Assembly (NCBI RefSeq): GCF_000003605.2
Contig: NW_003140811.1
Coordinates: 1,593,025 to 1,628,911 of the forward strand
Origin: Saccoglossus kowalevskii
Taxonomy: Eukaryota; Hemichordata; Enteropneusta; Harrimaniidae
DNA: 35,887 bases
Direction: 5' to 3'
Every line of letters begins with the position of its first letter. The stretch's first letter is position 1. This document shows, in pieces, positions 5,762 through 35,887 of this stretch. The notes beneath the pieces are model-generated. The model saw nothing but the letters and a program-made list of their open reading frames with translations. It did not search any database and was not told the origin of the DNA. The position numbers and the translations under genes are program-made.

Positions 5762-6900
5762 AGCCACTGAGGGCGCTGTACATTTTCGAAATGTTCAGTG
5801 GCTCGCAAAGTTAGACTTATAGCAAAAGACGCAGAAGCACTTTTTAACGCATGTAACCAGTTTAGTGTGGTAGAAAAAGGAAACAGTCATCAAATAACCG
5901 CGGCAATGGACAGGGTGAAGGTCAAGGCCGAAAATATGCGCTTGCGTTTCATTATAAATGCTTTCTATTAATAATTTCACTTTAAAATAATATTCATGAG
6001 TTGTGATTATGTCAGAACCTCATTGAAGTTATTAACATATTGTGTACGCAGTGTGCATGCTTTAGGTCATTCATATTCCACAGTGGTATAGTTGACACTA
6101 AGTGTTCGTCGATCTAGGAAGGGTAATGCCACATACCCACTGTAATTTGTGGGCCATTTTCCCAGTGTTGTTGACAATGACACATGTTGGGATATATATA
6201 TACACTTCTACTTAGTAAGAGGATCCTTTGAACTTAATGTTCAATGGTTCCCCTCTGTAGCGAAGTATGGCATCACCATCATTTTTTTCATAACTCCCTC
6301 CACAAACATCTACATTGTCTCCTTCCTCCAGGGTTATTGGGGAACCAGAATTGTAATTGACATGATAGGAGTGTGTACAAATCCCTTGCAATCTCAGCAG
6401 TAGCTGTGTTGGAGTGGCTTGTTAGCTTGTGTATAAATCTGGTAGCGTCGCTTATGTGTGGGCTTTGAATACAAACACAGCGTTCAACACTCTCAATGAG
6501 ATTGATAAACCTTAGTTACGACGGGTGCTGAACGTCACTTACATAAAACGTAAATTGCAATTGGCCTCACTGTGGGGACGCATTTGTTGTGGAGTACGGA
6601 AAATGAAACCGAAGCATGAACACGCTGCAAATAGCCTTTAATGAAGATATGACGTAGACATTCTCATAATAGTATTTAAAAGTGAAATTATTAATAGAAA
6701 GCATTTATTAAGAAACGCAGGAATCACGTATATTGGGTCTTGACCCCCACTATTGTGGAAATTTGAAGACTGTATACGCTTTCTATCATACTAAACTGGC
6801 GACCAAATTTGACAAGTGTTCCTCGCCTTTACACTGTAAGTCTGCATGAGTGTAGGCAAGCCGAGATAGGTTGCGATTGTATACAGCGCCACCAGTGGCT
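5762..6900. mobile_element. 1.1-kb foldback element with ~223-bp inverted arms
   Basis: The left arm (5762-5984) and right arm (6677-6900) are degenerate inverted copies. The outer ends AGCCACTGAGGGCGCTGTA and the complement of the right end differ at 2 of 19 positions. The inner ends share AAGTGAAATTATTAATAGAA and a following AAGCATTTA. No transposase frame is seen between them, so this is a non-autonomous, MITE/foldback-type element. Target duplication is not clear. Confidence 0.7.
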
Positions 6901-9420: not shown

Positions 9421-10645
9421 TACACATTCTCATGATTATTGTAAATCGCCAACTAACACTCGTTGACGTTGCTGTATCAACTTGAAACTTGGTATTTATA
9501 TAACGTTTTTAATTCTCTTTTTAATCTGTAAATATGATGTACAATTTCTTTTAATAATCGCGAAATATAAGACTCAAGGCGAGATTATGTTGCCGTTGGT
9601 GGCGCACGCTCTCTTGGATCAAAAGGCAAAGTTAGCACAAGCCAAAATTTCTCTACCTACAGATTCAGCATTATACAGCACAAAATAAAAAAAGTGTATA
9701 CTTTACGACGACGTCAAAGACGTGGAGACCTAATTGAAGAACTTAAACTCTGGTTGATAAAGTTGGTTCTCTGCTAACAGAAATATAAATGTCGCAGTGT
9801 GAGTACAAAAGCAATGCTGGAATTCAAAATGGCCGACTGAATTATCGTTTATATTTCAGTATAACATCGACAGAATGAATACAAATGTGACTAAACGTTG
9901 CCTTTCTGCCAACATAAACGTGTGAAAATATTTAGTGAGCAAAATAGAAGGACAAAAAACCTTGACTTTTATAACACCGACTTACCCTCAATGAATATGC
10001 GCAAATCTCTAAAAAGTACGCCCTCTAAAGTCAGACGTTTCAGTTTGTTTTGCAAACATGTCTGGTACGCATAGCAAACGGTCAATAGCAGACTGGTCCA
10101 GCCGTGACAACGTTATTGTTGATGCAAAACTTTTTCAGGTAATTTCGCATCGAACCAAGATTTGAAATAAAAAAATAAAAATACAATACAATAAAATACA
10201 ATACAATTACCGCGGTTGGGGAGAGTCTAGGTCAATAGGTCATTTTTTTGTTGTCGGTGTTCCAAATACAGTGTCAACAATAAGCAAATATTTTAACACA
10301 TTGTTAAAGGTAGCACTACTCATGAAAGTTAGATTATGTTATTTTAATTACTCTGAGTCTCGTATCTGATCAAAGTCCTTAGCCATAAATTTAACCACTG
10401 TATTGGTTCCGCATACTGTTCTTAGTCATATTTTATTACTAAAATAGTTGTGGACTCTATGCGTTATGCTTATGGCGTTCAGTTAAATATTACCTTTGTG
10501 TTGACTCGGCGTTATATATTTAATTCATTGATATTGACATTATTGAAATAATCCAGCGTCTTCGTCACGCATACAGGGTTCATTTGTAGTAACAACTCCA
10601 CTGTGAGCGCTACCAGCAGGTAACCGCTGGACACCTGGCCTGGAC

Positions 10646-13600
10646 ATGACTTCATCAGTGTCACTTGAGAACTTAGTCAGCGACAACGAGATAGATCAGG
10701 ACCTTGGGCTGGATCAGCCGCTTCAAGACGAGACGCAGTTCCCACACGTATATTCTAACGGCAATGAAGAAACGGACGAGGTCATCACGCCGGCTACTAA
10801 TGTACATATCTCATTGGAACAAGACAGTAACGATGACGACGCACACACCTACGATGCGGACCAAGAAAGTCAAATCGAACGTCTACAGACGTACCGTCAT
10901 GCAAATATGCCCCTGTACACCACCGAGCAGGAGTTCCAAAACCAATATAAGGAAAACGAGTTTGAGTACGTACCGTACGGTCAGAGAATTAAAACTAAAA
11001 TGAAGAAGTGCCGATGCGGTCCTCAATGTTGTAAAGGTTGCATGGTGTCAACGGTGCCAATTTTAGGTTGGCTACCCCGGTACGTGATTCGAACCCAGCT
11101 ATTAGCAGATATCGTATCGGGCATAACAGTCTGCGTTATGAACATACCGCAAGGTTAGTATAAAAATTGTAAAAAAAAAAAAAAAAGAATTTAAGGGGTC
11201 ATTAACAAACATGAAGAAAACAGGTCCCAATATCGAGCACGCCAATTTGGACATGGGCTGAGGTGGACATTTACACTTGTACACTAAGTACGTTCAGATA
11301 ATTTGTCATTCAATCAAGCTTATCACCTTTTATCCCATTTTTTACAGTTTATCTAGAAGTAAAGCACGATTGACTGTAAGAAAGGCATTTGATAAGTCAA
11401 TATAGATCGCGCCTGTCATTTTCCCGTTATCTGTATTCGAGAGAATATAATTACATACATTTATGAGTGTGGTGTAAATAGAGTGTGACGTCCTGGAACC
11501 CCACTCATTTTCACATATGAGTATATTTTGAGTCAAACATGTATACATAACCTGCAAGGTCTAGGATCTTGATAACAACTGCTAACGCTGATATGAGGCG
11601 AAAGTTGTTCATATCAAACCACCTATCCTCATAAAAAAGCAGGAACACTTTTGCCATCTTTCATTAAATAGATAGGTTAACTCCTAAAGTGCGCAAATGT
11701 AAGCTAAAGACCTTAATATGACAGAAACACCACATATTAGTAATATGGCTGGATTACAATCAAGACTAGTTGCCTTGGTAATAGACAAATTACATAATTA
11801 ACATGTTACAAATTAACATGACAGGAACGACGATGTGAGCAAAAATCGGCGAGACTCATTCGAGCCCATTATTAAAGCGAGTATCCCCGTCCGAGCCCTG
11901 TTATCACGCAATATTGGACATTGCTGAGTCCTTAATTTCAATTTAAATACCACGGACTGTAACAAAAAATTGAATATACGCGCGGTGGTAGCTTGCGAGG
12001 AAAAAATATACAGTGTGGTTAGTTAGCGTGCCGGGAACGCTTGTATTTCATTTACGCGTAGAAGAGCACACGACATGCGAACTATTTTTTAGCTGTAAAT
12101 GTAGGAAAACATCGAATATTGACGAATTGCACGACCTTGTTCGTATGTCCGTGCATTTACCTCAAGCACAGTCCAGTGCGATAACAATCGATAACAAGAC
12201 CGCACGAGGTGCCGATCGACCAATGGAAATGCGGTGTTTCAATAAAAAGGACAGTAATTTCATTTATTTTGTCTATAATTTTTATAGGATGACCACATCT
12301 CATGTGTCTTGTGTTGAGCATATTCTGTTTATAATAATCTCTTTGAAACAATATTTATCAACGCAAATACTACTGACACAAATCAAGGTCAGATGCACCT
12401 CTAAATCGCCGTTCCTTAAATGGTGCATGTTCATCACACGTGATAGACTTCGCACTCCCACAATGACCGTTTCAATTTCTTCAAATTGTCCAATCATTTA
12501 CTTCATTATCTTGCTAGTTGTACACTCTCAAATCTCTGTCAATTTAAAACACTGCATTGGTAAACAGACTAGACTTGGATGTCACGCAATCGATCACATT
12601 CTGTTAGATTTGAATTCATGAATGAACCTCGGGTTTATGGACAACTTGACCCCTGACCCATACAGTCACCGTACACCAAATAGATGAAGTAAAGAATGAA
12701 TGTCGTACTTCTTCATCACCAAGTCAGTCGGGATTGATTGGTTCTTCAATGTCGAATTTTGGGGGATATTTCTCGGGGATAAATGCTCGTTTACGTCAAT
12801 AACCACGCAAAGTAATACGTTAAGACTATTGTCTCTCTGAACAGAAGAGTAGCCAGAGCCACCGCCAAACTAATGTAAGTCAAATTGTTTATTCGACTAC
12901 TTAGCGAAAGGGAATAATGCGCGTTAGAAAGTTTCTGACATAAACCCCGCCCCCTAACGTTAAATTAGCCAATTGCATGGAAATTCATTTCTTAGTATTG
13001 AGCCGTCCAATTATTATAAGTTCACCGGGGTTATCACGAGTTCAAGCTACCGTTTAGATATCATCTGATGACAGCGCGTATGCCAAACAGAACCATCAGC
13101 TCGCAAAAAATCCATGACACTTTATGTAGTACAGCCTTGAAAAGAACGTTGAGTTTTCTGTTCCGCACTTTAATAACCATTGAGTAAATAATAAACGTTC
13201 TGTCTCTTCTATGATCCAAAAAACTGAGATAATTTATTACAGATTTAACTACATGTTTCAACGTATTCATTATTATATTCTATATTAACAACACATTTAA
13301 CTATATAATATTTTATGTGAAGTGTGCCCGTTGATACCATAGATCAGTAGTGTTATTTTGTAGTTATCGAACAGAAATACACCCTTTTCGTGTATCATGC
13401 CTTATTTATATAAACAACGTTCACGAAACTAACCAAACTAAAACCAAACAGATGATCTGATGTCTACAGAATTATGTGCTCAACATTGTTCAATGCATCG
13501 ACGTGGTTAACACGAGTATTATGGCTTTATTACAGCTCTCGACAACAATCGCGTTTTATGGCTGTATTACGGTTTGTAATAAAGCCATAAAACGTGCTAG

Positions 13601-16600
13601 GCATGTCGATGCATCGAACAAAGTTAAGACCACTGACCGTATTCCAGTTTTCAGATGGCAAAGTACTCACTCGTCTTAAAATTGTGCGTCGGTTAGGTCA
13701 CAACGCTCAAGCCACATCTCAGGGTGTTACGTAATGAGAATACACACTAATGCAGGGTAAATAATACAGAATACTACTCCACAGAAATTGGGGAGTCACT
13801 AGACGCAATTGTAGATATTATAGGTACTAGCAAACATATCTACGAATCTACGTATACTGGGAATATTAAAATCATTAAAAACGGGCAGAGTGGGGGAATT
13901 ATCAAAAGCATTACGATGAGGGTGAGTGTGGAAACGAACATTTGTGCATTATAACAGTCGTTACAATACGGGAGAGAGGACTTTTCTATCTTATCGGCAG
14001 CCGTGGACGTAAAATACCGAGACAATACGTAAACACGACTCGATATTATGTATTAGTCTCTAAATACTATATATATATGTTTAATTATGTATATTATTGA
14101 TTTTTTTTAAATTTATGATATGATATGATTTGATTTGTGTTTTATCTAGGCATGGCGTACGGCATGCTGGCGTCATTACCTGCAGTATATGGTCTATACC
14201 TGGGTTTCTTTGCACCTATTGTGTACGCACTGACAGGCACATCTAGAGAGCTAGCCATGGGTGAGTCATTTTATAGAAATACACATTTACATTGGAAGAG
14301 TTTTCTCGTAAAATAGTCTTACACGTGCGTTCCAGGGCGTAGAACCATGTTTAATAATTACGTCCCTAGGTACGTATTCTGTCATAAGTATAATGGTAAG
14401 CTCGGCTATAGAGGGAGTGGTACCGCAATATCCCGTCGACCAACCACCGCCGACTGGGTTTTTTAACAATACAAACACAACAGCTACTAGTATGCCGGAA
14501 TGGGACAGACAGCAAGAACTGATAGACGCTGCTATTATACTGGCACTTCTAGTTGGAATTATACAGGTTAGTATTATTTAGAATGCTTTCACTGAATGTG
14601 AATATCTATTTTCGTTCATAATGTTGATAACATCTCACATATTTGAATGAACAATCCGTTTTAACAATTTTCAAAAGAATAATACGAAATAAACTCTCAG
14701 AGAATGCAATCATTGACTCAGAGATTAAGTCGTTTGTCTATAAACTTGTTGGGGATCATGTAATAATCTTATAATATGTATATTCTATAGTAATTACGTA
14801 CTAGTATCTCGCTGAATGAATTGATAATTAATTAATTATATGTGTTTTAATTAATCAATTTATTAATTAATGCTAGTAGAGTGTTGAACTCAATACATAT
14901 ACGAACACAAGGCTATTGAAGTGCTTATTCTAATTCAGTTAGCAATGGGTATACTGCGTCTCGGCTGGGTTACTATATACCTATCTGACCCATTCATTAG
15001 AGGGTATACTACGGGTTCTGGTGTCCACGTGTTCACCAGTCAAGTCGATGAGATATTAGGTGTAAATGTTGCCAGCTACGATGGTGCATTTAAACTATAT
15101 TACGTGAGTATAACAACTAATATTCGCATATGTACATCGGTCACATGTTATAGTCAAGAGTTTCAAAACTTGTGTTACGATAAGTGGACTCAATGACCTT
15201 TCAGAACAATGTAAAATGATAAAGTTGGATACTAGTATTCTGATTTATTTATGTCAACCGTTTTGTAGGTTTACCGAGACCTATTCGCCGCTGCCGATGA
15301 TTGGAACCATGTAACCATATTGCTCGCAATGAGTTGTGTTGTAGTGTTAATTCTTATTAAAGAAGTAGAAACCAGGTACAAGAAACAACTGCATGGATTC
15401 CCCTTAGGAGCCGAGTTAGTTGTGGTATGTACCGCTTATATCATATACTTATGAGATATATATATATGTATATATGGGTACATTGTGGTCATGGATGTCT
15501 ATTTCATATAATGGCGAAATAAAATGTAATCGTTACTGAACCAATAGTTGGAATGGCAATACATGTGTAAATATAAGTATATGCAGTTGATAATATACTG
15601 ACATTTTATTCCATACCTAGGTAATACTGGCTACGTTATCAAGTTACTTGTTGAACTTGGAAGAAAACCACGGTGTTGAGATTGTTGGTGAGATACCTGC
15701 TGGGTAAGAAGATTTTATGAAATGATTTCATTATACATTGTGCGTAGATCGTATTTATTTATTTCCTGTTATTGGATTTTAAACATTATTAAATTCTCGT
15801 TATGCATATTATTCTTGACGATGTACGTATTTTAGGCTAATTAATCATTAATAAATTAATATTTTAAAATATGGTGATAATTTCTGACTTTTGCTGAATC
15901 ACTACGTATTATTATTGATAATTAGACATTCACTTTATAAACATAGCGATTTAAAATGATTCGTTCATTTCACAGAATACCCGCTCCAAGTATACCGTCA
16001 ACTACATACCTCACAGACTTGATTGGTGCTGCCTTTCCTATTGCAATTGTTGCTTATGCAATCGCTGTTGCCATGGCATCACTATTCGCTCAGAAAAAGA
16101 ACTACAAAATAGATTCAAATCAGGTATGGATATGGTGCAAATGTGTGGAGTTGATTTATTATTGCATATGTGTATAAAAACTATTTGAATTATTACAAGT
16201 TACACTATGCCGACTTTACTATTTGTATAATGCAGACATATTTTAAATATCTGAAAAGTGAAATATGCACTCCTTGTTATCACGAATATATTGTAAACAT
16301 GTACTGATGCCATTTTGATTTTGCATATATTAACACTCATTATGCATATGTAATGTGTACAGTCGTACCTGATTGGCCTATATGTTGTTACTCGTCGTGC
16401 ATATTCAATAAGTATATTTGCATGTATTTTGCTACTGTTGTCGCTTTCTTGAATACAGGAACTGGTTGCTGCTGGAACCACAAATTTTGTGTGTTCATTT
16501 TTCTCCTGCTACCCAGCCAGTGGTGCAATGGCTCGTAGCTTAGTCCAAGACAGTTCTGGGGCCACTTCACAGGTCTGTACATCGTATAATAATTTCCCAT

Positions 16601-19600
16601 ATTTTTTTCGATAATACCATCAATGCATCAATGTGTGATTCGTCTACTCCAATACTATGTATGTGGGTGGACACATACGTTTCCTTGAAATTTGATCAGA
16701 TCGAAATTGCCTCCTCGCAATACTAACAATGTATGGTTTATTTTAATTTCAGATTGCAGGCTTAGTAAACAGTGCATTGATGTTAGTAGTGCTATTGTGG
16801 ATTGGTCCTTTATTTGAGACTCTTCCAACGGTAACATTCATATCACATTCAATTTGCTTATCACTTGAGATAATTTTAGCAGCGACTGAGACTACTAGCC
16901 CAATGATTACATCTCTAAAACTATCAGCTAGATGTTTTTCATATTTATTTTTTTAGTGTATTGTTGTTTTTTTAATTCCGTGTTGCATGGTTTGTATACG
17001 CAGATAACAAGTAGGTTTAGATTAATTAACTATGAAATTTATTTCCACATAATTTTGACACGTTTGACACATTGAGAAAAAACTTTATGTATGTTTGCAT
17101 TAAATATATAATAACCCAGTCCGTTGTGAAAATAGTAATACTCGCTCGTTGCAGTGTGTGCTGTCTGCCATTATAATGGTTGCCTTAAGAGGAATATTCC
17201 GACAACTTCTGGATCTCCCGAGACTTTACAAGTATGACGTCACCGACTTTGTAAGTACGCCCGCACTTCGCACCATTCACACATATATTTTTTTGTTTTT
17301 CAAACGATTTTAATGTGTAGAGTTTAACGTTATATTTATAATTTTCTCGCATCTCTCGTATAACTTGTAGATTGTTTGTGAATGTCGATACCAGAAATTG
17401 TCACCTCCAATTTACCCGTGGCACAATTGGGTGAATTTATGTTTTCGATGCATTGAATTTCACTCAGTAACTTCCTCTCTCACTTTTTGAGCAACAGCTT
17501 CATAAATTAGCCGATTCCACGTGGAAGATAGAAGTAGTTATGCACTCGCCAATATCAATAGATAAGACTTATCTCAAACATTCCTGTTGCGAGTGGACTC
17601 GTTTTAGGACTACAGACTAAATGTAAACATACTAGAAATCAAATCAAGTGCTTCAAAAATAGTCGTAGCTGCAGAGCCCATCATTGTTAACCGCGGACGG
17701 ACGTATTGAATATTTGTGGCAACTGTCGCATTTTACATTGTGTTGATTACACGGTAACTCCACCATTGATCTTACCCTGTGCTGACTTCATGTTTGCCAA
17801 CTTTACATGGAGATTATTTAATATAATTTGTATATTACAGCATGTGTGGTGGGTAAGCTGTGTAGCCGTTATACTATTTGATGTTGATATAGGACTATTA
17901 CTCGGTGTGGGGTTTGCAATATTTGTACATGTCTGGAGAACACAGGAACCATATTGTACATTACTGGGTAGAATACCAGGAACAGATATTTATAAGGATA
18001 TTAAGTGGTATTCAGTTGTAAGTACATACCGTCACAGCGCTGCGAGTATGCCCTGCTCCCACTCACGAAGGACAATGTCATTAATACTGAACTCAGTTTG
18101 ACACGAGATACGCAGTTTGACTTTTTAAACCACGACACCGGCGCAAGCATATGCGAACGTACACTAGGGGCGTTTCGCTTAAATAAAACAATATTCTAGT
18201 CCGAAAAAAATAAGGTATCGGCCGTACTGAATAATCGTGCATAGATTATGTTGTGATATAGTGCAATGTTGTCATTTCCATCAGATGATAGACAACTGAT
18301 AATTTAAGTTATATGAACACAGAAATAACCAGAAAACTCATAGTTTGTCCTGTAATATATCTCAAATTTTTATTCAACTTCTCGACTTTGTACAGGTCAC
18401 AGAAATTCCGGGTATAAAGATATTCCGTATGCACTCGTCTCTGTACTTCGCAAACACTGCTCATTTCAAATCCAAGGTGTACAAACTGACTGGCGTCAAT
18501 CCAAGAAAGATATTACAAATTAAGGCGAGACAACAGCAGTTACAAGATTTAGAGATGAGAAGAGAAGAAAAGAAGAAAAACAAGGAAATGAAGAAAAGAG
18601 TGAAAGAAAATGGTAATGTTATCGAAGATGAAAGAACAGCCGATGGCACGCCAAAGGTCAGTGTCGGTGTAGTAGTCGATTTTGATGCTAATTAATAATA
18701 ATTAATAATTATTTTATTGAATATGATTATGACTTAACGCCAACTCGTATGTATTCTGATACCAAAATAATAATAAACAATCATCATACGCAACAAAGTG
18801 ATTCGTGACGAAAATTACATTTTCCGAAGTATGTCCGTGTATATAATATAATATTATAATTGGATAGATGTCACAAATATATCCGTAAAGTATTTTTTTG
18901 TTTATTTTTCGCCAGTTGTCTGCCCCTGCAAATCCAGTATTATATAATGGCCGGAATGACGAATTCACCTCCAATGAACATGGAGCACACATAGTCGAAC
19001 TCGACGACGATTTTACAGGAGACAGTGGGTTAATTACAGATTTGTCACCAGAAAACAGCATCCACACAATTATCCTCGATTGTTCATCTTTCAATTTCAT
19101 TGATTCGACGGGACTGAATGGACTACGACAACTGTTCAGAGAATATGACCAGGTTGGAATCAAAATTTTGCTCGCACACTGTATAAGTAAGTACACGTTA
19201 TTTGAATCGCAATGTAGTGAATATTCATATTATGTATTAGTCCCAGCTAGTAATCTATGTGGAACATGTGTATATTAGGCGGAAGATGAATCACCCCATA
19301 TTGTATTTCGTAGAACGTACACATAGAAAAGCGAGGCGCCTGACAACATCTCTAGTGTATTTCCGTAAAACCAAAAACACACTGTTTCCCAACATCAGTT
19401 GTGCCCCAAAAGGAAATCGAATTGTTGAAGTTGTCTCAGATCTCGATCGAACTCTCCAATACAGTGAATGTCGTCACATGTTTTTGTTATATATTTAAAC
19501 GTATGTGAGTTTAATAGGTTCGCTGGGAAATTATTTACGCAGATATTACAATTTCTTTTTTTGTTATTTTAGAGTTTTCTTTCATTCGAAAGTTTACAAC

Positions 19601-20115
19601 GTGAACTAGAATTAGTTTGATGCATTGTGGGTAGCATACTTGAAATTGAAAACGGTCATTTTTCTCTTCTTTTCCAGAGCGAGTCCGGGATTTTTTCTCC
19701 AGGTGTGATTTTTATGAGACTGTTGGCTGCGAAGCAAACCGTTGTTTGTTTGTAACTGTGCATGGCGCTGTGATGAGTGCAATTGAAGATGACACAGATG
19801 AGGTGAGAGCAGCCAAAAATTGTAATGCGTGTCTGCCTGCAAGTTTGGACGTCCTGATTACTTATTGTGATTACGATACAACTACTATCGTTATGTTTAT
19901 TTAAAGTATGTTTGGGTTATGATTGCCTATGTATTAAACATATTTTTCTCATTTTTTTTTCACAGAACAACATAACATCAGCAAAAGTACGTACCGTTAT
20001 ATCAAATAAAAATGTCACATCGACATTTATGGCAAAACAAAGTCCCGCACCAGGTGCGAATAATCATACCGATGACCATACCGATGCCAATTCTATTGAA
20101 TCAACGAAGCTATAG
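10646..20115 (+). CDS. SLC26-like: SLC26-family anion transporter, gene B (complete, 15 exons)
   Basis: Exons: 10646-11153, 14150-14260, 14370-14566, 14939-15103, 15269-15424, 15621-15703, 15976-16123, 16459-16572, 16753-16830, 17155-17250, 17841-18017, 18396-18656, 18916-19186, 19678-19802, 19966-20115. They join to 879 residues with no break, and every intron is GT/AG. The ATG is the first after an in-frame TGA at 10604, and MTSS is conserved in gene C. An acidic N-terminus (1-120) is followed by a Cys cluster (122-132), WLPRY (142-146) and PQGMAY (168-173). A glycosylatable loop (NNTNTT) comes next, then the signature [14 protein letters not shown] (294-307) and the anion-site segment [17 protein letters not shown] (about 470-486). 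The STAS domain starts near 612, has a Lys/Glu-rich linker, and carries DSTG at 761-764. The C-terminus is STKL. The product should be a plasma-membrane anion exchanger or channel of about 14 transmembrane spans; the substrate is not determined. Confidence 0.95.
11187..11616 (-). pseudogene. Decayed non-LTR reverse transcriptase fragment in gene B intron 1
   Basis: Read on the minus strand, the frames give in order NNFRLISALAVVIKIL (compare NxxRPIS...SKILE), then GAIYIDLSNAF...VNRALLLDKL (palm motif with the catalytic Asp of F/YxD), then CSILGPVFFMFVND (compare GSILGPLLFxxYIND). These are the ordered reverse-transcriptase blocks of LINE-type elements (CR1/jockey/L2-like). Stops and frameshifts separate them, and neither endonuclease nor 3' end is recognisable. 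It is a dead fragment lying antisense to gene B. Confidence 0.8.
13488..13619. repeat. Large imperfect hairpin with competing inner stem
   Basis: The left arm 13488-13533 pairs with the right arm 13576-13619, both carrying a GCATCGAC block and the ATGGCTTTATTAC end. Within the loop, 13553-13570 also pairs with 13576-13593 (17 of 18), leaving a 5-base loop. The same right arm can therefore form two alternative stems. It lies in intron 1 of gene B. Confidence 0.7.
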
Positions 20116-23383: not shown

Positions 23384-26300
23384 CTGCAATTCACAACAAT
23401 TACATCGTGGTTGGTTATGTGTTACTTACTGATACAGACTGAGTACTTCTACCTTTACAGTCACACTTGTCGCCACATCTCTGAGAGTGTGGCGGGTAAC
23501 AATACAGCAAACGTGTTTCTAATTTGCGCTCACATTTTCGACTGAAATTTGATCTTTATTACATTTACATGGCCATTAGTCTAAAAAAAGACGCTGCAAA
23601 ATCGCATTATTCTGTCGGAGAAGGGAAGAACAAAATGCTATATACACATAGATCGATATCGAAAAAATTTACATAAAATGTTACTTCATGTTCAGGTGTA
23701 AACAGGTCACGGAGTACGCGATTACAGTGATCAAATTTGAGGGATGTACAGATTGACTGGATGTCAACAAAGAATCGACTACATCTCAGTGTTTGTTGTG
23801 TATAACATAGTACGCCATTGTGAAATGGATGTGCCTTAGGCTGCAACAGCACGCACACTGATACCGCGAAGAAAAATACAAATCCATTCATTACAGTGAA
23901 AACTACTAACTAATTTATTTACTATTTAAAATTCGCCGTCTCTTTCTAACTGCGATGTAACGTAATATGGGTATACAAGTCTCGATAATTAGTTAAAATT
24001 AAGATTTATGTAAATAGACGACGACGGAGAGTGAAATGCAAATTAGCTAATTAATATTTACTGAAATATAATGACCACGCCCCTCACTGTAAATGAAACC
24101 ACGAGAATTTGTGACATATACTAATATGAAAGCATACCTCAGCCGTAGAATATAGAACAGCATCATGGATAGTAACAAATATACAACTCTCGCCTTTGCT
24201 TCCAACTTTCTCATGAAAATTACCTTTTGAAAGAAAATCACGGACGCTCTCTGGAAGAAAAAAAATAGCGATTTGAAGTGCACACATGTAGAAATGTGTG
24301 TACATCTACTTCTACTTCTATAATTGCCAAGTCGGTTTATGTATAAACGCAGACAATTCAACAGATAAAACGACGCGCATAAATTAAAATTAATGCGCTA
24401 CGGTAGTCACGCATCGCGCGTCCAAATTTGATGTTAATGCATTTTACACGCGTTGTACACGTCGTATGGGACCCACATCGAACACGACGCGGTGCGACGA
24501 TTGCATGCATTAATATATACGTAGATTTGTGCATTTACACTTTTAAGTTACATTTTCCGATGTATTGTAATTGAACTGCTGACTTGAAATTAACATACAT
24601 ACATAGTTGAATAATTGAAAATCATTTAAATATATAATTGTAAAAAAATCGGTTGCAAAACGGCACATTGTTCGTTTGTTCGAATACCAACTTCAAAAAA
24701 CAAATATTCTTGTACTTTCAATAATTTAAGTTGTAAAAAATATATTTTCAAACGTTGAACTTATTTTTTTTAAACTGTTTACATATATACGACCCCACTT
24801 TAGTGTGTACATATGCTATTAAAATCATCGCGGCAGCAAAACTTACTTCTGCAATGTGTCAGCAACACCGTAATGTCTACTTGTCGGAATTCGTTGACAA
24901 GTTGTCTTAGTCCATTTAACCCTGTAGAATCTATAAAACTAACCGGAGAACAGTCGATAATAATCGTGTGGATGTTACATCCGGGCGACTGGATATCTTC
25001 AAACTTGGTCACGTGATCGCCATGTTCACCGTCGTCCTTTGATGTTTTCCGGTCAATATTGATCAGGTGATCTATGGCAGGGGTGGACAATTGACGAGAG
25101 CGCTCAGCCTTCTGGGAAGGTGTGTATTTCTGCTATAAATGTATAGAAGACTCCGTGTATTTATAGGTCCACCGTGAGGGCGTTTTCTCTTTATATTACG
25201 CTCGGTTACTCTGATAATATTCTCAACACTTACCTCACTTTCATTTACGTGTGCGATTTTATTTTCACTTTCCTTGATTCCTTTTTTCCCCGAATTTTCA
25301 TATTGTTGCTGTCTGGACTTTAACTGGAATGTTTTCTTTGGATTTAACCCTGTCAGTTTATACACCTTTGACTTGAAATGAGCGACATTTGCATAATACA
25401 GCGATGCCTGCATACAGAATATTTTGATTCCTGGAATCTCTCTTGCCTGGAACACAATTGACAATTCAGTTCATTTACGTGTATGTTATAATTCCTGTTG
25501 GAGAACTGATGTTCGATAGTACTGCGGGCTCAGTGGAGATCACGGGCGAACTCTTCTCCCTCTGTACCATCGAAGATCACGTCGTTACAATTTTTCAAGT
25601 AATTGTCTTGTGTACAAAATAATGAACGCGTAAAATGTCGTGTGCAGACAAATTTAAGCTATACAACCGAATCAAGAAATTTCACGGAACGTGACTTGTT
25701 ATCTCACGTGAAACACTTGTTAGTTGACCAGGGTCGTCCATTACATTACATTACATTACATTACATTACATTACATTACATTACATTACATAGTCTACAC
25801 GTATCCTCGTACACATCTGTTCCTAGTATTCTACCAAGTAACGTACACTGTAGTTTCTGTGACATGTACACATATTGTGATGGACTATACTTACACTGGA
25901 ATACCACTTAATATCTTTGTAAAGATCTGTTCCTGGTATTCTACCCAGTAATGTACAATGCGGTCTTTGTGTTCTCCAGACATGTGCGAATATAGTGAAT
26001 CCCACTCCAATTAACAGTCCTATATCCACATTAGATAGTATAACCGCTAGGCAGCTAACACACCAAACAGCCTGGGGGGGGATATCACTTTTAATATCGC
26101 CCTTGTATAAAATGTTGCCAAATAATTGAAGTTGTCAAACTTAAACTGATATTTTCAGCAATACATATAATTGAAACCAAAACTTCTGACACATATTTTT
26201 CATTTTATTGTTTATTTATTGCCTGATGACAGTATATATAGAAGTGAGTATTAAGATATTGATATCCAAGAAGGCGAGATATTTTGTAAAACACTGAAAC

Positions 26301-29300
26301 ACATACATTGATTTTTAGGAAATTGACTAGTGGTTTGATTAGACTGAATCTTTATTCAGTGAATTTATAGGCTGAAATACATACATCGATTTTTAGGAAA
26401 TTGACTAGTGGTTTGATTAGACCGAATCTTTATTCAGTGAATTTATAGGCTGAAATACATACATCGATTTTTAGGAAATTGACTAGTGGTTCGATTAGAC
26501 AGAATCTTTATTCAGTGAATTTATAGGCAGAAATACATACATTGATTTTTAGAAAATTGACCAGTGGTTTGATTAGACCGAATCTTTATTCAGTTAATTT
26601 ATAGGCTGAAATACAAACTATGATCACCCCGTAATGTGATAAACGGGAACGATGCCCCCTGTGTATACTTACAAAGTCAATGACGTCATACTTGTAGAGT
26701 GTCGGAAGATCAAGAAGTTGTCGGAAGATTCCTCTTAATGCCACAATTATAATAGAAGCAAGTACAGCCTGTAACGGAATACAATTACACTAAAATAAAC
26801 ACTACATAACTGGACATGTACACTAAAGGACTGGTTATATACACTCCATGGCTGGTCATATACACTACAGAACCGATAAAGACTACTAGTATATGACTGA
26901 TGATGTACACTACAAGACTGGCAATAAACACTAGATTATTAGTCATATATAATACAGAGCCGGATATGTTATTAATTGACTGGTTATATACACTATACGA
27001 TTTGTCATTTACATCACTTGACAACATATATTGCCGAATTATAGTGAGATAATAAAGTATTATTTGTATTTACCGTTGGAAGAGTCTCAAATAAAGGTCC
27101 AATCCACAATAGCACTACCAACATCAATGCACTGTTTACTAATCCTGCAATCTGAAATTAAAGAGTGAATCCAAACTACTAATTATTATATGATCTAACC
27201 TTTAACCTATGTTATGCATCGTGATGCTAATTCGTAAGTACAATACCAATACCAACATACATACATATGAAGTAAATTGCTGGTAATAATTAATACGTTT
27301 TGTTATATTATATTATATGAATCTCTAGTTTTTGTTGTTGACACTCAGTTGTTGATACTGTACTGGTTATGAATACAACGTGTTTCAGTTATTTTAAAAT
27401 GTTCAGACCTGTGAAGTCGCCCCTGAACCTTCTTGGACTAAACTCCGAGCCATCGCGCCACTGGCAGGGTAGCAGGAAAAAAATGAACACACCACATTAG
27501 TGGTGCCACAAGCCAACAATTCCTGTATTCAGAAAAGAAAATGCAGACACAGAGTGAGTTGATAAATTCACATTGCTATCATAGTGCGACAACAAAACAG
27601 TGTCATCCATTGTGTAACCATGACAACGACTTTAAATATGACCAATGTTATTTTTATACCATTATTCATAACAGAGAAAGTCACAAAGTGGTTCGTCAAT
27701 GAGGTTGTTGATCTATCCATATGTATAGTGAGCGCGACTCTTTTTCCATATTTACCATGGAACCTGGTTTGTCCGTGCCCTGTTTTTTGAGTCACTCGAT
27801 TAGGGACCAATGTTTTGTTAACAGGAATATGTTGTCAGGTGAATTATTTATAAATGTCAGTTAATTTCTTTTTCAACATACCTGGTTTGCATCGATTTCA
27901 TAATTTTTCTTCTGGGCAAATAACGACGCCATGGCAACAGCAATTGAATATGATACTATTGCAATCGGGAAAGCAGAACCAATCATGGAGGTGAGATATT
28001 TAGTTGATTGGAGACTCGGTGCGGGTAACCTTTTGAATATTCAAAACACAATCAGTATAGAATAAAAACGTATAATCACACACTTAGTACACTGTATAGT
28101 GTTCTTTGAAATTACATCCGACTTTCTATTATATAAAGACCACTTCATAATCACTTACCCAGCAGGTATCTCTCCAACAACATCGACATTGTGATTCGCT
28201 TCTAAATTTAGGAAGTAGCTAGATAATGTACCAAGTATGACCTAAATTGGAAAAACAGTTATCAACTCTTAATGATAGGAATGGTCAATTAGCAAGATGA
28301 CAGATGATTGGGCATTTAAGTTCATTTTTCAGGCTTGTCAAGCATTTATATATGTGCATACACCTGAGAGTACAAATAAGAGAAGGGTCACAACCTTAGT
28401 GCCTGGCAAAAAGTTGATGCAATTGTATTTATGAAAAAAATCTGATGTGACATTTACTGTAATTTAGAGACAGGGTTGCATTCATTCAGCAAGGTGACTA
28501 TGGATAAATACATCAACCAGCTGTTAGCGCACCAAATGGAACCACCAAATGGAGCCAGTCCAGAATGTCAATCACATCATCCTAGATGAATCAATCTAGA
28601 AGCAATGAAGAAGTGCTTGTAAAGCCCTTACTGCTTTGGAGATATCGACCTGCTCTCTCGCCTCTTAAAGCTAAGGTGAGAAAAGAAAGATCATTTTGGA
28701 GAAGGAATTTGACTCCAATCCTGTACTTTATATCAACTTAGGACTACCAGAAGGACATCCTAGATCTTTACGCCACTGGTAAAAATAACTATGTTTTACG
28801 ATACAGAAGAGAAAAGGCTTGGCTTAAACCACCGCTGAATGAGGCAACAACTCAGGGAATGACTGAGCGGTTTTTTTTTTGGGGGGGGGCATTGTCATTG
28901 ACTGCATACAAACTATCCATTGATGAATATAACTACATTCTACTACCAGGTGAATGAATCCATAGCACTATCAGGAGTCATATATCCTGATTAACATTCA
29001 GGTCACCTCCCAGGGTACTGTTGTTTGATTTAAAGACAGTTATGAATCTAACTGCGGTGCTAAATATGACAAGAACAGTAAAAACATTGACATCAATACT
29101 ATCACTCTCAAATGCCTCATCCCGATTAGCACTAAATGGAAACCTTAAATCTCAGTTTGTCTGAGAGTAAAGACATTGGACAGGTTGACAAGGCTAAAGA
29201 ACGACGGAACAATGACACAATATTAATTCTGGTATATGATGATGATGTAAAAGGGTTTCAACTATAGCCAGCCAGTCACCCTTGACATATCAGGTGGCAG

Positions 29301-32300
29301 CAGTATGATATCCATGAAAGAAAGCACAACTTTGACCATGCCATGAAACGTCATCTCCGGCCGGATCATCATGTACATATCAGGAATAATAGTCTTGATG
29401 TGTCAGTCAATGCCTTGAAGTACAATGTGAAAGAGTCAGGATATTTCCTTCTACAGCACAATGTTCATGCAATAGATGTCAGCAATAGACATGAGCATAT
29501 TTTGAGCTATGGTGGGCCCAGCATATCCCTTTGGTGATCAGTGAATCGGTTAACCAATTATAGTAGAAGTTGATTACACCTGTAGGGGCCTGGTGAAAGG
29601 GATGAGGCAGGCCCTGGGGGACTTATATATACTGTTCAATCTGATTGAGATAACAGACAGAGACATGGCTCCTACACCATGGCAATTACTTACGACAACT
29701 AACTCTCCCCCTAAAGGAAATCCATGTAGGTGCTTCTTAAATTTCGACTCTACTTCTTTGATGAATATTAAAACAAGAATACAGCTAATTGATAGAAGTA
29801 TAGTCACGCAATTCCATTCCTCTATCCCTGTAAATATGTCTCGATACACCTGTAATAGTATGTATGTATATATGTTTTAAATTGTATTGTAATAATGATT
29901 TAACGTATTCTGAGTATTATATAAAGGGAGTATTTACTTACGTAATACAGTTTCACTAGGCCATCATAACTACCGACTTTGACTCCAAGTATATTATCTA
30001 TTTGGCTCGTGAACACGTGGACACCAGATCCTGTAGTATATCCCTTGATAAAGGGATCCGATAGATATACAGTAACCCAGCCAAGGCGCAGAATACCCAT
30101 AGATAACTAGAACAAGCAAAGTCAGATTATATTTTGAAAAGATTATTCGTAAAAGTCGACAGGATTTGTGATAAAAGTGAGCGACAATTGCATGTCAACT
30201 TCTAGTGTTATTAATTGCAATTATCTTGATAATCGCTTCATGTCAACTGAAACATACAACACTTTAACACGTTACTTTAGATTTGTGCAGTATAAGTGCA
30301 ATAAATACAATTATTATGACATTAGATACATGTATATTGGTTATTGGTGTTTTCTGGTAAATCTGGCAAAATAATAAAGCAAATTTGTCGCATACGACTT
30401 GTTTACCACTTCCGTGTTACTGAGAATGTTCTAGAACCGTACTATGTCTGGGTGGAATATTCTAGATTTTTTTTTAGAAACTGGTTGAATAGGTAATAGA
30501 ACACTGTAGAATAGAAGGTAATGGAACATTCTAGAAATTTGTAGTAAATTCCAGACTCATTATGTATGCTGATGTAATGGTCTATTTATAGACAGTGGGG
30601 GTATATATAGGGGAGTTGTTCAGCACTGATTTCAGATCGGAGATCTCGTTGAATGGTATTGGAGTTTAAGTATCTAGTCATTGGAGAAGTGGAGTTTTAC
30701 CGCGTTATTGTACTTGATGTTTGCAGAGTATAATAATACCAGTACCAGTTGAAACCTCATCTGTTGGCTCCGTGTTCGTATTTTATCATCGCCGCCAGGG
30801 AAGTCTTTCTGTTACTGTTGCCATTTTGGTATTTGAACCATCACACCTGTACTATACCAATTATGGTAATATTACGTTGCGTGTGACAAAATTGAATTTT
30901 CTGTTTTAATGGGTGAAACTGTCGTTTGCCTGCTAGAACAAAGTTTTTAATCGCACACACCACTTTCATCACCGTGACTCATAATACCGACTAAACCCTG
31001 AGAACCAATTACTACAAGTCATACTGAGTATAAATGAAAGTACTGTAAATAGTTTCACTAGAACATACACATTCGTTAATCAATAGATATCTGGATGATA
31101 TGATGATAACTCCATCCATTCAAAAAAGAATGTGTTCTTGGAATTGCAAAAAAAAAAAAAAAAAAATACTGGACTTAATCACATTTTATTAATTCTATAC
31201 TAACCTGTATAATTCCAACCAGGAGTGCCAATATAATAGCAGCATCTATCAGTTCTTGTTGTCTGTCCCACTCTGGTATAGCGGTTGCTTCTGTATTATT
31301 GAAATACATACCGTTGGTAGGTGGTTCTTCCATATCGTCGGGATATAGAGGTACGGCGCTTTCTATTGCTGTGCCTACCAGTATGCTAAGAACAGAATAA
31401 GTACCTACAGAACAGACACGAGTAAGTGACATATCACGCCTAGGAGATAAGTGTGGATGTCAATAAAAAACGTTTTGCTCTGGAGAAAGGTTGTTGAGTT
31501 TTTCTTGAATATGGTGAACACATCGGGGTTGTCATTGTCACTCAGCATAATCAGCCTTAAAGCGGGAGGATCGTCACCTGCGCACGTGCGGGAATTGAGT
31601 TCCAAGCGACGATAACAACGCACGCTAAAACGCAAAGGCTAATGGGTAGATGCTTGTTTGTAAACAATGACACACTAGCCATCTGACGCATGCGCAGGTG
31701 ACGACTCCCCTGCTTTAACTGTAGATCCATAGCTCTTCTTGTGTAGCTCTTTAGTCTTTTTGATGTTATTTCAGTCATTTCTGATACATTTGGTGTCATT
31801 AATTCTGCTATTTTCAGACATTAGTATATGGTACCTCCCATAGAAAACCGTGACAAAAATGGTCTGTTTGAAGTTGTTTTTCCCGGGATTTAGCTGCTAA
31901 AACTTACGTAAATCTAGTGACAGTCATTTTCGTGAGGTTCGAACGAGGATTACTTTGCTAAATGGCGTCACTGTATTAGAACTTACCTCGGAAAGTGGAA
32001 CAGCTAAAAACGCCAGGTCGTCTGCTACTATTAGTATTTTGCTATAGACTTCGTGGTACTGTTGTCTATGTTCTCTAAATCCTATACATGCATGGAAAGA
32101 CATATATTTGTATATTTCTCTTAAAAAAACTGTGGGCAGTATACGCATGCATCTAAAGTAGACGACGAAGAGTAGTTCGCTTTACGGGCGTATTCAACAA
32201 GTTATCGGGGATACCTTCTCCAGTGACGTCACATTGTCCTCGATCGACCTGCAGAAAATGGCTGCCACCGGAGTAACGTGTGGCTCGGAAAACTAAATCC

Positions 32301-34318
32301 CGGGAAAAAGAACTTCAAACTTATAATGGTTTTTGTCACGGTTTTGATTTTGAATATTCTGCTTTTGTCGACTTTTATTTGCGATGCCATTTGGCGTCGC
32401 ACGTTTGTGTTACGCAAGTCTATGGGAGGAACTATAGCTCTTCTGTGTCGAAAAAAATCCCAATACTAGTAGCTGAAAATAAAAAAAAATATAAGGACAC
32501 AAAATACATCAGAAATGACTAAAATACCATCACAAAAACTAAAGACCGACACAAGAAGTGATATGAACCCACAGCTAAATCAGCCTGCCAAGTTATATAT
32601 ACTGTATTTTGTTTATATGTCTTACCCATTGCTAGCTGTTTAGATGTGCCTGTCAGTGCATATATAATTGGTGCAAAGAAACCCAGATATAGACCATGTA
32701 CTGGAGGTAATGATGCCAACATAGCATATGCCATACCTATACACAGACAAGTACAATTAGTGTGACTATGCAAGAAATTATATTCCCTCATTGTTATTTA
32801 GACAAAACCCGACTACGAATAATGTGTTAGATCTTGTTCAAATATATTGTGACCTTTTCAGAGGGTCATAACCGCTAGTGACGTAAGGCTTCACAAGCGC
32901 ATGTGGTTAGTTCTACGTTGAAAGCACAGATTTATACTTTGGCTCGATTTCGCAATTGCGTGACAAATATATATCTACCAACTTATACAAAAATCAACTT
33001 AACAACGGCATGGCAAATATACATATTTTCAAATCGGTTCAACAGCAATAGTGCAATATCATACTTTCGTACATTAAATGAACAAGGATTTTGAAATTAC
33101 TGTCGAAAACAAAACTTTCTAATTATATATAGTTGCATTAAAGCTGAAAACAGAAAAAATGTTCTGTCGAATTATTATACGAATAACTCCAACTAGCAGA
33201 TGCTTACAAATTGGTAAGAACACAAACTGAATGAATAAAATTAAATCTCATCTTGGAAGGCCGTGTACATATTATGCTATCACGACCACATCGATGCCTC
33301 TTTGTGCTGGCCTGATTAATTGCAATTACTGGCAAAATATATCGAGCTTTGATGTATGTGACTACGCGTTGATAAGATGTTAATGTGTAAATTTGCTAAC
33401 ACGTTAGACACGAGGCACAGCGTTGGCATACTTCAGAGACAGACCATGGCAATACAATCGTTATTGCTTATTTCGGAGACGACATTACGCACCACACACG
33501 CAGACTCAAATGTAAAAAATATTCTACGCAAACTATACTATATGTACAACATCTTCCATCTTTTAAACTTGTCAACAATCAAAAACTGTTGCGGGGACGT
33601 CCCGAAGACTTGGGACAATTAATTTGAAACGACACCGAAGGAATTCGCGTTGTGATTCGCGTACGTGCGATATTGAACAACAAATCTATTAAAAAAAAGG
33701 CTATAAAACACTCAAGAGAGTCTACTTATCCATATTGGATACATTCGCCTTCGTGTTAACGACGTTGACTTTTTCAACTCGCCTACTTGTTATCAATTCG
33801 TACGAAAGTTAGCGTAGAGTTTATCGCTGTAGTATATTGGAGTGGGTACACTTTCTACACTAACCTTGCGGTATGTTCATAACGCAGACTGTTATGCCCG
33901 ATACAATATCTGCTAATAACTGGGTTCGAATCACGTACCGGGGTAGCCAACCTAAGATTGGCGCCGTTGACACCATGCAACCTTTACAACAACGAGAACC
34001 GCATCGACACTTCTTAACCATAGTTTCAATTTTCTGACGGCATGGCACATATTCGAACTCGTTCTCTTTATATTCTGTGTGGAAACCTCGCTCCGTGTAC
34101 ATCGGTCGATTTATTTGGTAGATCAGGGAGGGGTCAGTTTGATCGGCGTCATCTTGATCGGCGACGTCTTGCACAACGTATGCAGTAACGTCTTGGTCGT
34201 GGTGGTCCTGCTTGTAGCTGTGATTGTACAAGACATCCTGCAGTGGTCGGTCGACCCCGAGGTCTACTTCTTCCTCGTCCGCGCCAACTAAATGTTCTAG
34301 GGACATGGATGAAGTCAT
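23252..34318 (-). CDS. SLC26-like: SLC26-family anion transporter, gene C (complete, 15 exons)
   Basis: Minus-strand exons: 34318-33865, 32736-32626, 31404-31205, 30106-29942, 29849-29694, 28241-28159, 28029-27882, 27522-27409, 27151-27074, 26768-26673, 26071-25895, 25446-25234, 25111-24847, 24250-24138, 23383-23252. They join to 834 residues with no break. Ten of the 15 exons have exactly the length of their gene B counterpart, and all 14 intron phases agree. Shown: Cys cluster (104-114), WLPRY, PQGMAY, a loop with [54 protein letters not shown] core [10 protein letters not shown] (DSTG 726-729) and C-terminus MTKL. The start is set by the MTSS shared with gene B; in-frame ATGs at 34381 and 34357 could add 21 or 13 residues. 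Exon 11 has AVWCVSC...SNVD where genes A and B have HVWWV.C...FDVD. The role is membrane anion exchange or channel; the substrate is not determined. Confidence 0.95.
25739..25792 (+). repeat. (TTACA)10 microsatellite
   Basis: Ten perfect TTACA units at 25741-25790, in intron 11 of gene C beside the exon 11 relic. Confidence 0.95.
25806..25880 (-). pseudogene. Relic partial duplicate of gene C exon 11
   Basis: This stretch resembles the 3' two-thirds of exon 11 (about 25916-25995) at roughly 110-118 bases offset. It shares TCTGTTCCTAGTATTCTACC (one mismatch) and the TGTACA...ACATGT context. It lacks 8 bases present in the exon and has an in-frame stop when aligned, so it cannot serve as a coding exon. 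It lies directly behind the true donor at 25894, in intron 11. Confidence 0.75.
26296..26619. repeat. 78-bp tandem repeat, 4 copies plus a partial
   Basis: Unit starts at 26296, 26374, 26452 and 26530, with a partial at 26608: an exact 78-bp period. Units differ at only a few positions. Each carries CTTTATTCAG, which reads as AATAAA on the coding strand of gene C. The array lies in intron 10 of gene C (26672-26072). Confidence 0.95.
26795..27015. repeat. Degenerate 21-bp minisatellite in gene C intron 9
   Basis: Repeats of a unit like TACACTCCATGGCTGGTCATA, decayed but still in a 21-bp rhythm in the best part (26819-26860). Because 21 is a multiple of three, the minus strand shows an apparent repetitive open frame that is not a gene. 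Confidence 0.7.
28242..29693 (-). other. Intron 5 of gene C with unidentified ~1.2-kb insert
   Basis: The matching intron of gene B is only 196 bases. The extra sequence, roughly 28440-29570, is less AT-rich than its surroundings and contains broken plus-strand frames, for example one ending near 29537 that includes [21 protein letters not shown]11-G9 run lies near 28870. I do not recognise the protein fragments or clear element ends. A decayed transposable element or retrocopy is the likeliest explanation. Confidence 0.4.
30424..30609 (+). promoter_or_regulatory. Three heat-shock elements plus TATA box in gene C intron 3
   Basis: GAATGTTCTAGAA (30424-30436) and GAACATTCTAGAA (30524-30536) are perfect nGAAnnTTCnnGAA heat-shock-factor sites. 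GAATATTCTAGAT (30455-30467) has one mismatch. TATATATA at 30602-30609, set in a G-rich context, follows, and TTTCAGAT places an initiator-like A at 30634, about 32 bases downstream. The layout is that of a heat-inducible promoter firing antisense to gene C. It may belong to an old LTR or other element; no clear long terminal repeat boundaries were found. Confidence 0.5.
31131..31167. repeat. Poly(A) run in gene C intron 3
   Basis: An 18-base A run near 31149-31166 lies just downstream (plus sense) of the antisense promoter-like block and just before exon 3. On the gene C strand it is a poly-T run. It could mark the tail of an inserted element. Confidence 0.4.
31557..31718. mobile_element. Short palindromic MITE flanked by TTAA
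   Basis: The two ends (31557-31584 and 31691-31718) are inverted copies at 24 of 28 positions, both beginning TTAAAGC and sharing TCGTCACCTGCGCA. The body is about 154 bp between TTAA sites. It lies in gene C intron 2 and abuts the next foldback element. Confidence 0.65.
31715..32579. mobile_element. Foldback element in gene C intron 2
   Basis: The left arm (about 31715-31900) is an inverted, degenerate copy of the right arm (about 32285-32579). Shared blocks include CTTCTTGTGT, TCATTTCTGAT, CCTCCCATAG, AAAACCGTGACAAAAA and TTTTTCCCGGGATTTAG. The right arm has roughly 100 extra bases between the last blocks. No coding frame is recognised. It is a non-autonomous element. Confidence 0.65.
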
Positions 34319-35887
34319 ATTCGGGCGATTTATGATAGACACCAGGCTGTTCTTCATACAAGTGTACTGCGCCAATGACACTTTTTTTATTGCTGAGGAT
34401 GTTTGTTCGGTAAGTCATATATCAATCGAATCGATGCGTAGTTATGAATATGATGTATGTCAAAGGTTAAACAAATATGACTGTTTTTTATTATTTTTTA
34501 TTACTTTTTGGAATACGTTTCAATAATGTTCTAACGAAAGTGGATTAGATTTTGAATTCACATAATTTTTGTGAGCAGCATTTACGGCGAGATTTGTGAG
34601 ACTTTGTTCGTATTATGAAACCATGGGAGGATTTTAATATGTAGAATCGCTAATTTGCGAATTACTGGTTTAATAGTTACCCTAATTCCCTAAAATTCTC
34701 AGTGTGACTCAGAGTTAGTTGCGTAATTAACTACTGCGCGAGATAGCGATAATAATTGTGGAAGTGATTGCATAACCAGTATTGTGGGCATCACGACGTC
34801 ACTAACATTATACGTCACGCTTCGTCTAATTCGACCACTCAGGCTGACACAAATGATCAGCCAGAGGCAACACACATTTCAAGACGCTTAATCAACGTTT
34901 TCAACAAGCAGTGAACATAATCTGAGGTTATTACGAAGATACTGCAATGTATGCACGAAGACAGTACAGCGGAGCATCGACTAGCGCGCAGCATCCTCGT
35001 AATGACCTTATTATTATACATTTTCTCCCAAGAATACATCATGGGTATTTCGAAATCCAAGTTTAGAACAGATTTAGCGAACTTCTTTGTGTGGGGTCCG
35101 GTCAAACCCTGGGACGGCCATGTTTTTTTTTATTATTAGAGGACGCTTACACACGTAATCGTTCCATGTTCCGCGTTTCCTGATATAGTAGGATGAAAAT
35201 ACCCCATAAAATACCGCAAAATTACGACACGCTGTAACTTATGACGTTACGGTGACAGATGTAGAATAATATTATTTATTAATATCACACTATAGCATCA
35301 AGAATACTACTCATTACCTCTTAACATGATTTTGTAGTAAAAAACACAATATTAAAGTAAAATTCAATTACATTTATATCTTACATATTACCGGTACTAA
35401 GATGATATGACATTATCCTAACTTCGACAATGTTGCCATGTCACAGAAAGTTGAACTGCTAAAATTGTAAAAAAAAAGTCAAATGCTGCACGTAATTAAT
35501 CATTGTTGAGGTTTTAGGCAGTTTTTTATTCAGTCGTGTTTTCAATTGAACGTTACTTATTTGGTCTGATTACGCATGCGCGTAATAAGTTTAAATACGT
35601 ATAACATATCATAATAAATGTCAGTGAAGCAGTAGTTAACTCTTATTTCCACGAGTGTTTAATATTTGTCTATAAATTCAGAGTTAAAAATAGCAAGAAA
35701 GAAAAAAAATCAAATGATATTGAAACAGGTGTGAACAACGCAATTACTACGTGAATAACGACTGTAGGTCAATACTCTAACCATTATCCCGCCTGTCACG
35801 TGATGCCTTTCTGGATGTTCTGCCACAATCGTCATCTCAAGGTAGATTTTATGTATGCTGTCACAAACGTTACAAATAAAAGAAGAT
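34319..35887. other. Upstream flank of gene C
   Basis: No gene is supported. The stretch should contain the gene C promoter and 5' untranslated region, but I see no convincing TATA/initiator pair. Two in-frame upstream ATGs (34381, 34357) could extend the protein. A GCATGCGC core within an ATTACGC/GCGTAAT inverted repeat near 35570-35587 resembles an NRF1 site; this is weak. Confidence 0.4.

Follow-up and report, generated by a model that had tools for sequence, protein, structure and literature searches.

Four published reports describe HSF sites that lie in LTRs, in other kinds of mobile DNA or in antisense repeats (PMC5059998, PMC10236774, PMC6927752, PMC3334603). For Brassicaceae LTRs with HSF sites, one of them gives transcript rises of up to hundred-fold with predicted 3P sites and up to thousand-fold with 4P sites, traces the strong ONSEN site to duplication of a proto-site, and records that, of the ONSEN fragments and solo LTRs in A. 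thaliana, 16 in all, none had functional sites (PMC5059998). In the bovine leukemia virus LTR, an HSE in U3 is reported to mediate activation by HSF1 in reporter assays (PMC10236774). HSE-bearing Helitrons rewire the heat-shock response of Caenorhabditis, where HSF-1 and polymerase occupancy were measured (PMC6927752). In human genes, Alu repeats lying antisense carry HSF sites that have been associated with antisense RNA and a drop in sense RNA (PMC3334603; also covered in a review, PMC9032817).

The locus described here, in a stretch of 35,887 bases (the window), comprises a cluster of HSEs followed by a TATA box and an initiator-like site (the module). Like ONSEN/COPIA78 and other heat-responsive Brassicaceae COPIA LTRs, it has nGAAn units in adjacent groups of three (3P; PMC5059998), at 30424 and 30524. 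Bovine leukemia virus is a precedent for an HSE within U3 in a retroviral LTR of animals (PMC10236774), the Helitrons for mobile DNA bringing HSEs beside genes (PMC6927752), and the Alu repeats for repeat-borne HSF sites antisense to a gene, with heat-shock antisense RNA (PMC3334603). The systems differ in kind, ONSEN/COPIA78 being a plant Ty1/copia element, the Helitrons DNA transposons and the Alu repeats SINEs; bovine leukemia virus is an exogenous retrovirus with one short site (PMC10236774), whereas the putative solo LTR here has several sites of greater length. Moreover, heat response was measured for ONSEN/COPIA78, occupancy for the Helitrons and a two-fold reporter induction for the Alu repeats, whereas the present candidate, including its TATA/initiator outline, is a reading of the sequence (PMC5059998, PMC6927752, PMC3334603). 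Because LTR, Helitron and Alu precedents for HSF sites exist, the finding probably belongs to a known kind.

Promoter-like module antisense to an SLC26-type gene

Gene C, on the minus strand, is, on the strength of its matches, an SLC26/sulfate-permease family transporter gene. Its exons 3 and 4 matched Pfam Sulfate_transp (E 3e-05 and 3.8e-12, respectively), and its first exon, which gave no Pfam family up to E 0.1, matched SLC26 chains, pendrin and prestin among them (best E 2.8e-11; 14 distinct sequences). Exon 3 (31205..31404, minus strand) was delimited by alignment to a paralogue, by Pfam and by reading the borders by hand, and the borders of intron 3 (30107..31204, minus strand, 1098 bp) were likewise read by hand from the sequence. 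The whole module lies inside this intron, antisense to gene C.

A pattern search found two perfect GAAnnTTCnnGAA sites in the whole window, at 30424 and 30524, together spanning 113 bases (30424-30536); the opposite register, TTCnnGAAnnTTC, has no perfect match there. On the plus strand, the order of the sites is perfect GAATGTTCTAGAA (30424..30436, 9/9), near-perfect GAATATTCTAGAT (30455..30467, 8/9), degenerate GAACACTGTAGAA (30499..30511, 7/9), perfect GAACATTCTAGAA (30524..30536, 9/9) and degenerate GTAAATTCCAGAC (30544..30556, 7/9); 7/9 units in the same register as GAAnnTTCnnGAA are located at 30477, 30499, 30514, 30534 (overlapping) and 30544. At least three contiguous alternating nGAAn units, one criterion for a heat-shock promoter, are present at both 30424 and 30524. 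A degenerate direct duplication with 25-base spacing was also observed (30490-30511 versus 30515-30536, 18 of 22 bases identical), one copy of which holds the 7/9 HSE at 30499 and the other the perfect HSE at 30524.

Downstream of the HSEs, pattern matching located a TATA box, TATATATA (30602..30609, plus strand, symmetric and thus present on both strands), and an initiator-like TCAGATC (YYANWYY; 30632..30638, plus strand) whose A at 30634 is the predicted start and lies 32 bases beyond the T that opens the TATA box (30602). By sequence, a candidate core promoter is present at the usual spacing, with an initiator match on either strand, that on the minus strand lying 34 bases from the symmetric TATATATA. 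Among 63 TATAWAWR on the two strands of the window, seven are followed by an initiator 28-34 bases on; two of the seven are the TATA at 30602 read on either strand, and the other five lie elsewhere in the window.

Every element named in an earlier note on this DNA, that is, three HSF sites (two of them perfect and the one at 30455 8/9) within 113 bases and a TATA box and initiator at the right spacing, is present where it had been placed, and the HSF sites, their spacing and their position in the intron are direct observations. The promoter-like anatomy of the module is, as judged from these motifs, real. The orientation proposed there, opposite to gene C, agrees with the HSEs lying on the antisense-upstream side but is not fixed by the core elements; the plus direction rests mainly on the HSEs upstream of 30634, because the TATA box is symmetric and an initiator match exists on either strand.

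LTR-like ends around the module

A search for ends and duplications, combined with simulation, identified a candidate solo LTR of 503 bp, TGTCGCAT...GTGTGACA (30386..30888, plus strand), which encloses the whole module. Comparison of the flanks revealed a 5-bp duplication, AAATT, with a left copy at 30381..30385 and a right copy at 30889..30893; these ends and the flanking AAATT were observed directly. The inverted tips agree exactly over 4 bases and in 6 of 7 overall. From the predicted start, U3 would extend over about 30386-30633 and R-U5 over about 30634-30888 on the plus strand, so that a predicted promoter defined by the TATA at 30602 and the initiator at 30632 has its start inside the candidate LTR, near the middle of the 503 bp. 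Length, ends, duplication and central start fit a solo LTR.

TG...CA tips are a weak criterion alone: eight pairs in the window pass when the end test is strict, and simulation gives a mean of 4.3. Around the module, nine pairs of TG...CA ends with a 4-6 base duplication were found; the duplication has 4 bases in eight of them and 5 in the ninth, 30386-30888, which has AAATT at either side. A wider search gave three 5-base pairs that enclose the module, of which 30386-30888 alone has inverted tips of at least 4 bases. In 60 simulated Markov-3 sequences with TGT tips required, the number of such ends expected by chance to enclose a 217-base stretch ranged from 0.004 for lengths up to 600 to 0.019 for lengths up to 1100; the window itself, without the demand for TGT tips, gave 0.013 to 0.045.

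The possibility raised in the earlier note that the module is the promoter of an inserted stress-responsive retroelement thus gains moderate support from the LTR-like ends and the 5-bp duplication, and is held back by the rival end pairs, by a missing AATAAA and by the lack of another copy in the window. The predicted R-U5 contains no AATAAA, ATTAAA or eight other variants, AATAAT at 30732 being the only one of 11 hexamers found, and blastn self-comparison gave no second copy of the module or of the candidate LTR within the window. No match to 30386-30888 was obtained by blastn against phages and plasmids, nor by exact search with three patterns from the segment in viral contigs and one in prokaryote contigs, results that say little as these collections hold no animal genomes. 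Scans of the window with Rfam at gathering score and for tRNA gave no match.

Two further LTR-like pairs were examined. The pair 31536-31922, with a GTCAT duplication, 7/7 tips and better ends, was set aside because a diverged repeat (31844-31949 versus 32345-32237) continues past its right border. The pair 28336-29190 shares only short matches with the candidate at 30386-30888 (best E 0.63).

Taken together, the sequence makes it quite possible, and we tentatively prefer the reading, that the module belongs to a solo LTR left by a heat-responsive LTR retrotransposon in intron 3 of the SLC26-type gene, in antisense orientation. By analogy, the bovine leukemia virus precedent raises the case for this reading slightly; the symmetric TATA box with its initiator match on the minus strand lowers it slightly, as does a weak inverted pair around the module (see below).

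Alternative origins of the module

Promoters of HSP genes have HSEs, a TATA box and an initiator in an order and spacing like those of the module. The module could accordingly be a heat-shock promoter of the host with no connection to a retroelement, serving a stress-induced non-coding or nested transcript or representing a stranded duplicated fragment of an HSP promoter. This is rather unlikely, as the LTR-like ends would then be a coincidence and no HSP-like frame lies downstream: between 30634 and the border of exon 3, a single plus-strand stop-to-stop frame of at least 60 residues is wholly contained; it is 63 residues long and gave no Pfam hit up to E 0.1. A nested heat-shock gene downstream was rejected, since the six frames of 30001-31210 contain no long frame outside the exons and the 63-residue frame is Pfam-negative.

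Origin by chance, as a functionless cluster in AT-rich intron DNA, is clearly unlikely. Two perfect sites within 113 bases occurred in 7, 8 and 3 per 1000 simulated windows at Markov orders 1, 2 and 3, respectively, so that a scan of many windows would meet such pairs (0.3-0.8% of simulated windows); in 10,000 Markov-3 windows there were 94 close perfect pairs, 41 of which had a third register of at least 8/9. The symmetry of the TATA box and the initiator match on either strand are likewise compatible with chance. Against it stands the cluster as a whole, scored by weights for 9/9, 8/9 and 7/9 registers within 140 bases, with overlapping HSE registers counted alike in data and simulation. The observed score of 19, compared with 6 for the next-best cluster anywhere else in the window and 12 for the simulated 99.9% point (Markov-3), was reached in none of 10,000 Markov-3 windows, which bears out the contention of the earlier note that the cluster is unlikely by chance, and the TATA-initiator pair would be a further uncommon coincidence. 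These per-window figures overstate the case, as the module was chosen by eye after the fact, possibly among many windows, and it is for this reason that chance is still accorded some weight.

It is very unlikely that another kind of transposable element with HSEs, either a Helitron as in Caenorhabditis or an element with terminal inverted repeats, accounts for the module. Helitrons are DNA transposons without LTR ends. HSE-bearing Helitrons have been published (PMC6927752), intron 3 of gene C is longer than its counterpart in gene B, and the module is spanned by a 14-base inverted pair (30421-30434 and 31058-31071, 86%); the left arm of the pair, however, runs into the first HSE, and its outer 5-base flanks are unlike each other. 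A terminal-inverted-repeat transposon was therefore rejected, this weak pair with unduplicated flanks being the only one that spans the module, and so was a retroposed RNA with its end at the A-run near 31149-31167, because no exact repeat (at least 7 bases, compared between about 29951-30424 and 30641-31260) starts right after it, at 31168.

Predicted antisense transcription, paralogues and other repeats

If the module does belong to a solo LTR, its U3 would carry two perfect, one near-perfect and several degenerate HSF sites, the TATA box and the initiator. When heat or proteotoxic stress occurs, trimers of HSF would presumably bind the 3P-type sites, and RNA polymerase II, directed by the TATA box, would start a plus-strand RNA near 30634. 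Unless ended early, this RNA would cross exon 3 of gene C at about +572 to +771; the first AATAAA after 30634 on the plus strand is located at 31462. We infer from the sequence the insertion, the binding of HSF and the transcription, as well as any consequence for the transporter gene, which is speculative. The two options of the earlier note, an antisense RNA across exon 3 and an inserted retroelement, do not exclude each other.

Open literature joining HSE with LTR or retrotransposon terms listed plant, fungal, nematode and retrovirus papers, and no animal LTR retrotransposon with HSEs appeared among the listed titles and the opening parts of the abstracts; a case in D. melanogaster is referred to in PMC5059998, and heat-induced retrotransposition in Drosophila is cited in PMC9032817. 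An LTR family of this kind, should it exist and be heat-responsive, would stand in animals where ONSEN stands in plants and would give mobile DNA a direct way to add genes to the heat-shock response. That an animal LTR family has put HSF-driven promoters in introns and that the antisense RNA of this copy lowers the SLC26 transporter while the paralogue is unaffected is, as a whole, scarcely probable. For gene C, a paralogue in the same cluster that lacks the putative insertion would provide a built-in comparison.

Three SLC26-type paralogues lie in the window (1-3200, 10600-20000 and 24000-34420), two on the plus strand and one on the minus strand. Paralogue B (about 10.6-20 kb, plus strand) aligns with C over most exons, and part of the third, A, is found at the left end of the window. 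The intron of gene B corresponding to intron 3 of gene C (14567-14938) has 372 bp, i.e., 726 bp less than in C, and gave no blastn match to the module, both of which favour the LTR reading; counting against it, removal of 508 bp from intron 3 of gene C would still leave it longer than that of gene B. Identity between aligned stretches of B and C varied from 96.8% (16742-16834 versus 27162-27070) down to about 69%, a spread that may reflect gene conversion. The CpG ratio is near 1, which, like the gene structure, would fit an invertebrate.

Several other repeats were observed. Mostly in intron 2 of gene C, a dispersed repeat forms a diverged inverted pair (31710-31949 and 32237-32583; 77.7% over 121 and 74.5% over 110 aligned columns), and the same intron contains a MITE-like structure at 31557-31718, with TTAA tips and 28-base inverted arms, 86% complementary and 106 bases apart, of which no full second copy is present in the window. 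Within gene B, a weak reverse-transcriptase-like frame on the minus strand (11342-11560; Pfam RVT_1 E 0.017, below the curated cut-off) is possibly a retroelement remnant. A long imperfect palindrome of about 150 bases, matching its own reverse complement at 68%, occupies 13479-13628, and an inverted pair of about 170 bases, 74% identical, is located between genes A and B (5857-6028 and 6636-6799). Inside gene C, 26294-26615 is a tandem array of 4.1 copies of a 78-base unit with 94% matches.
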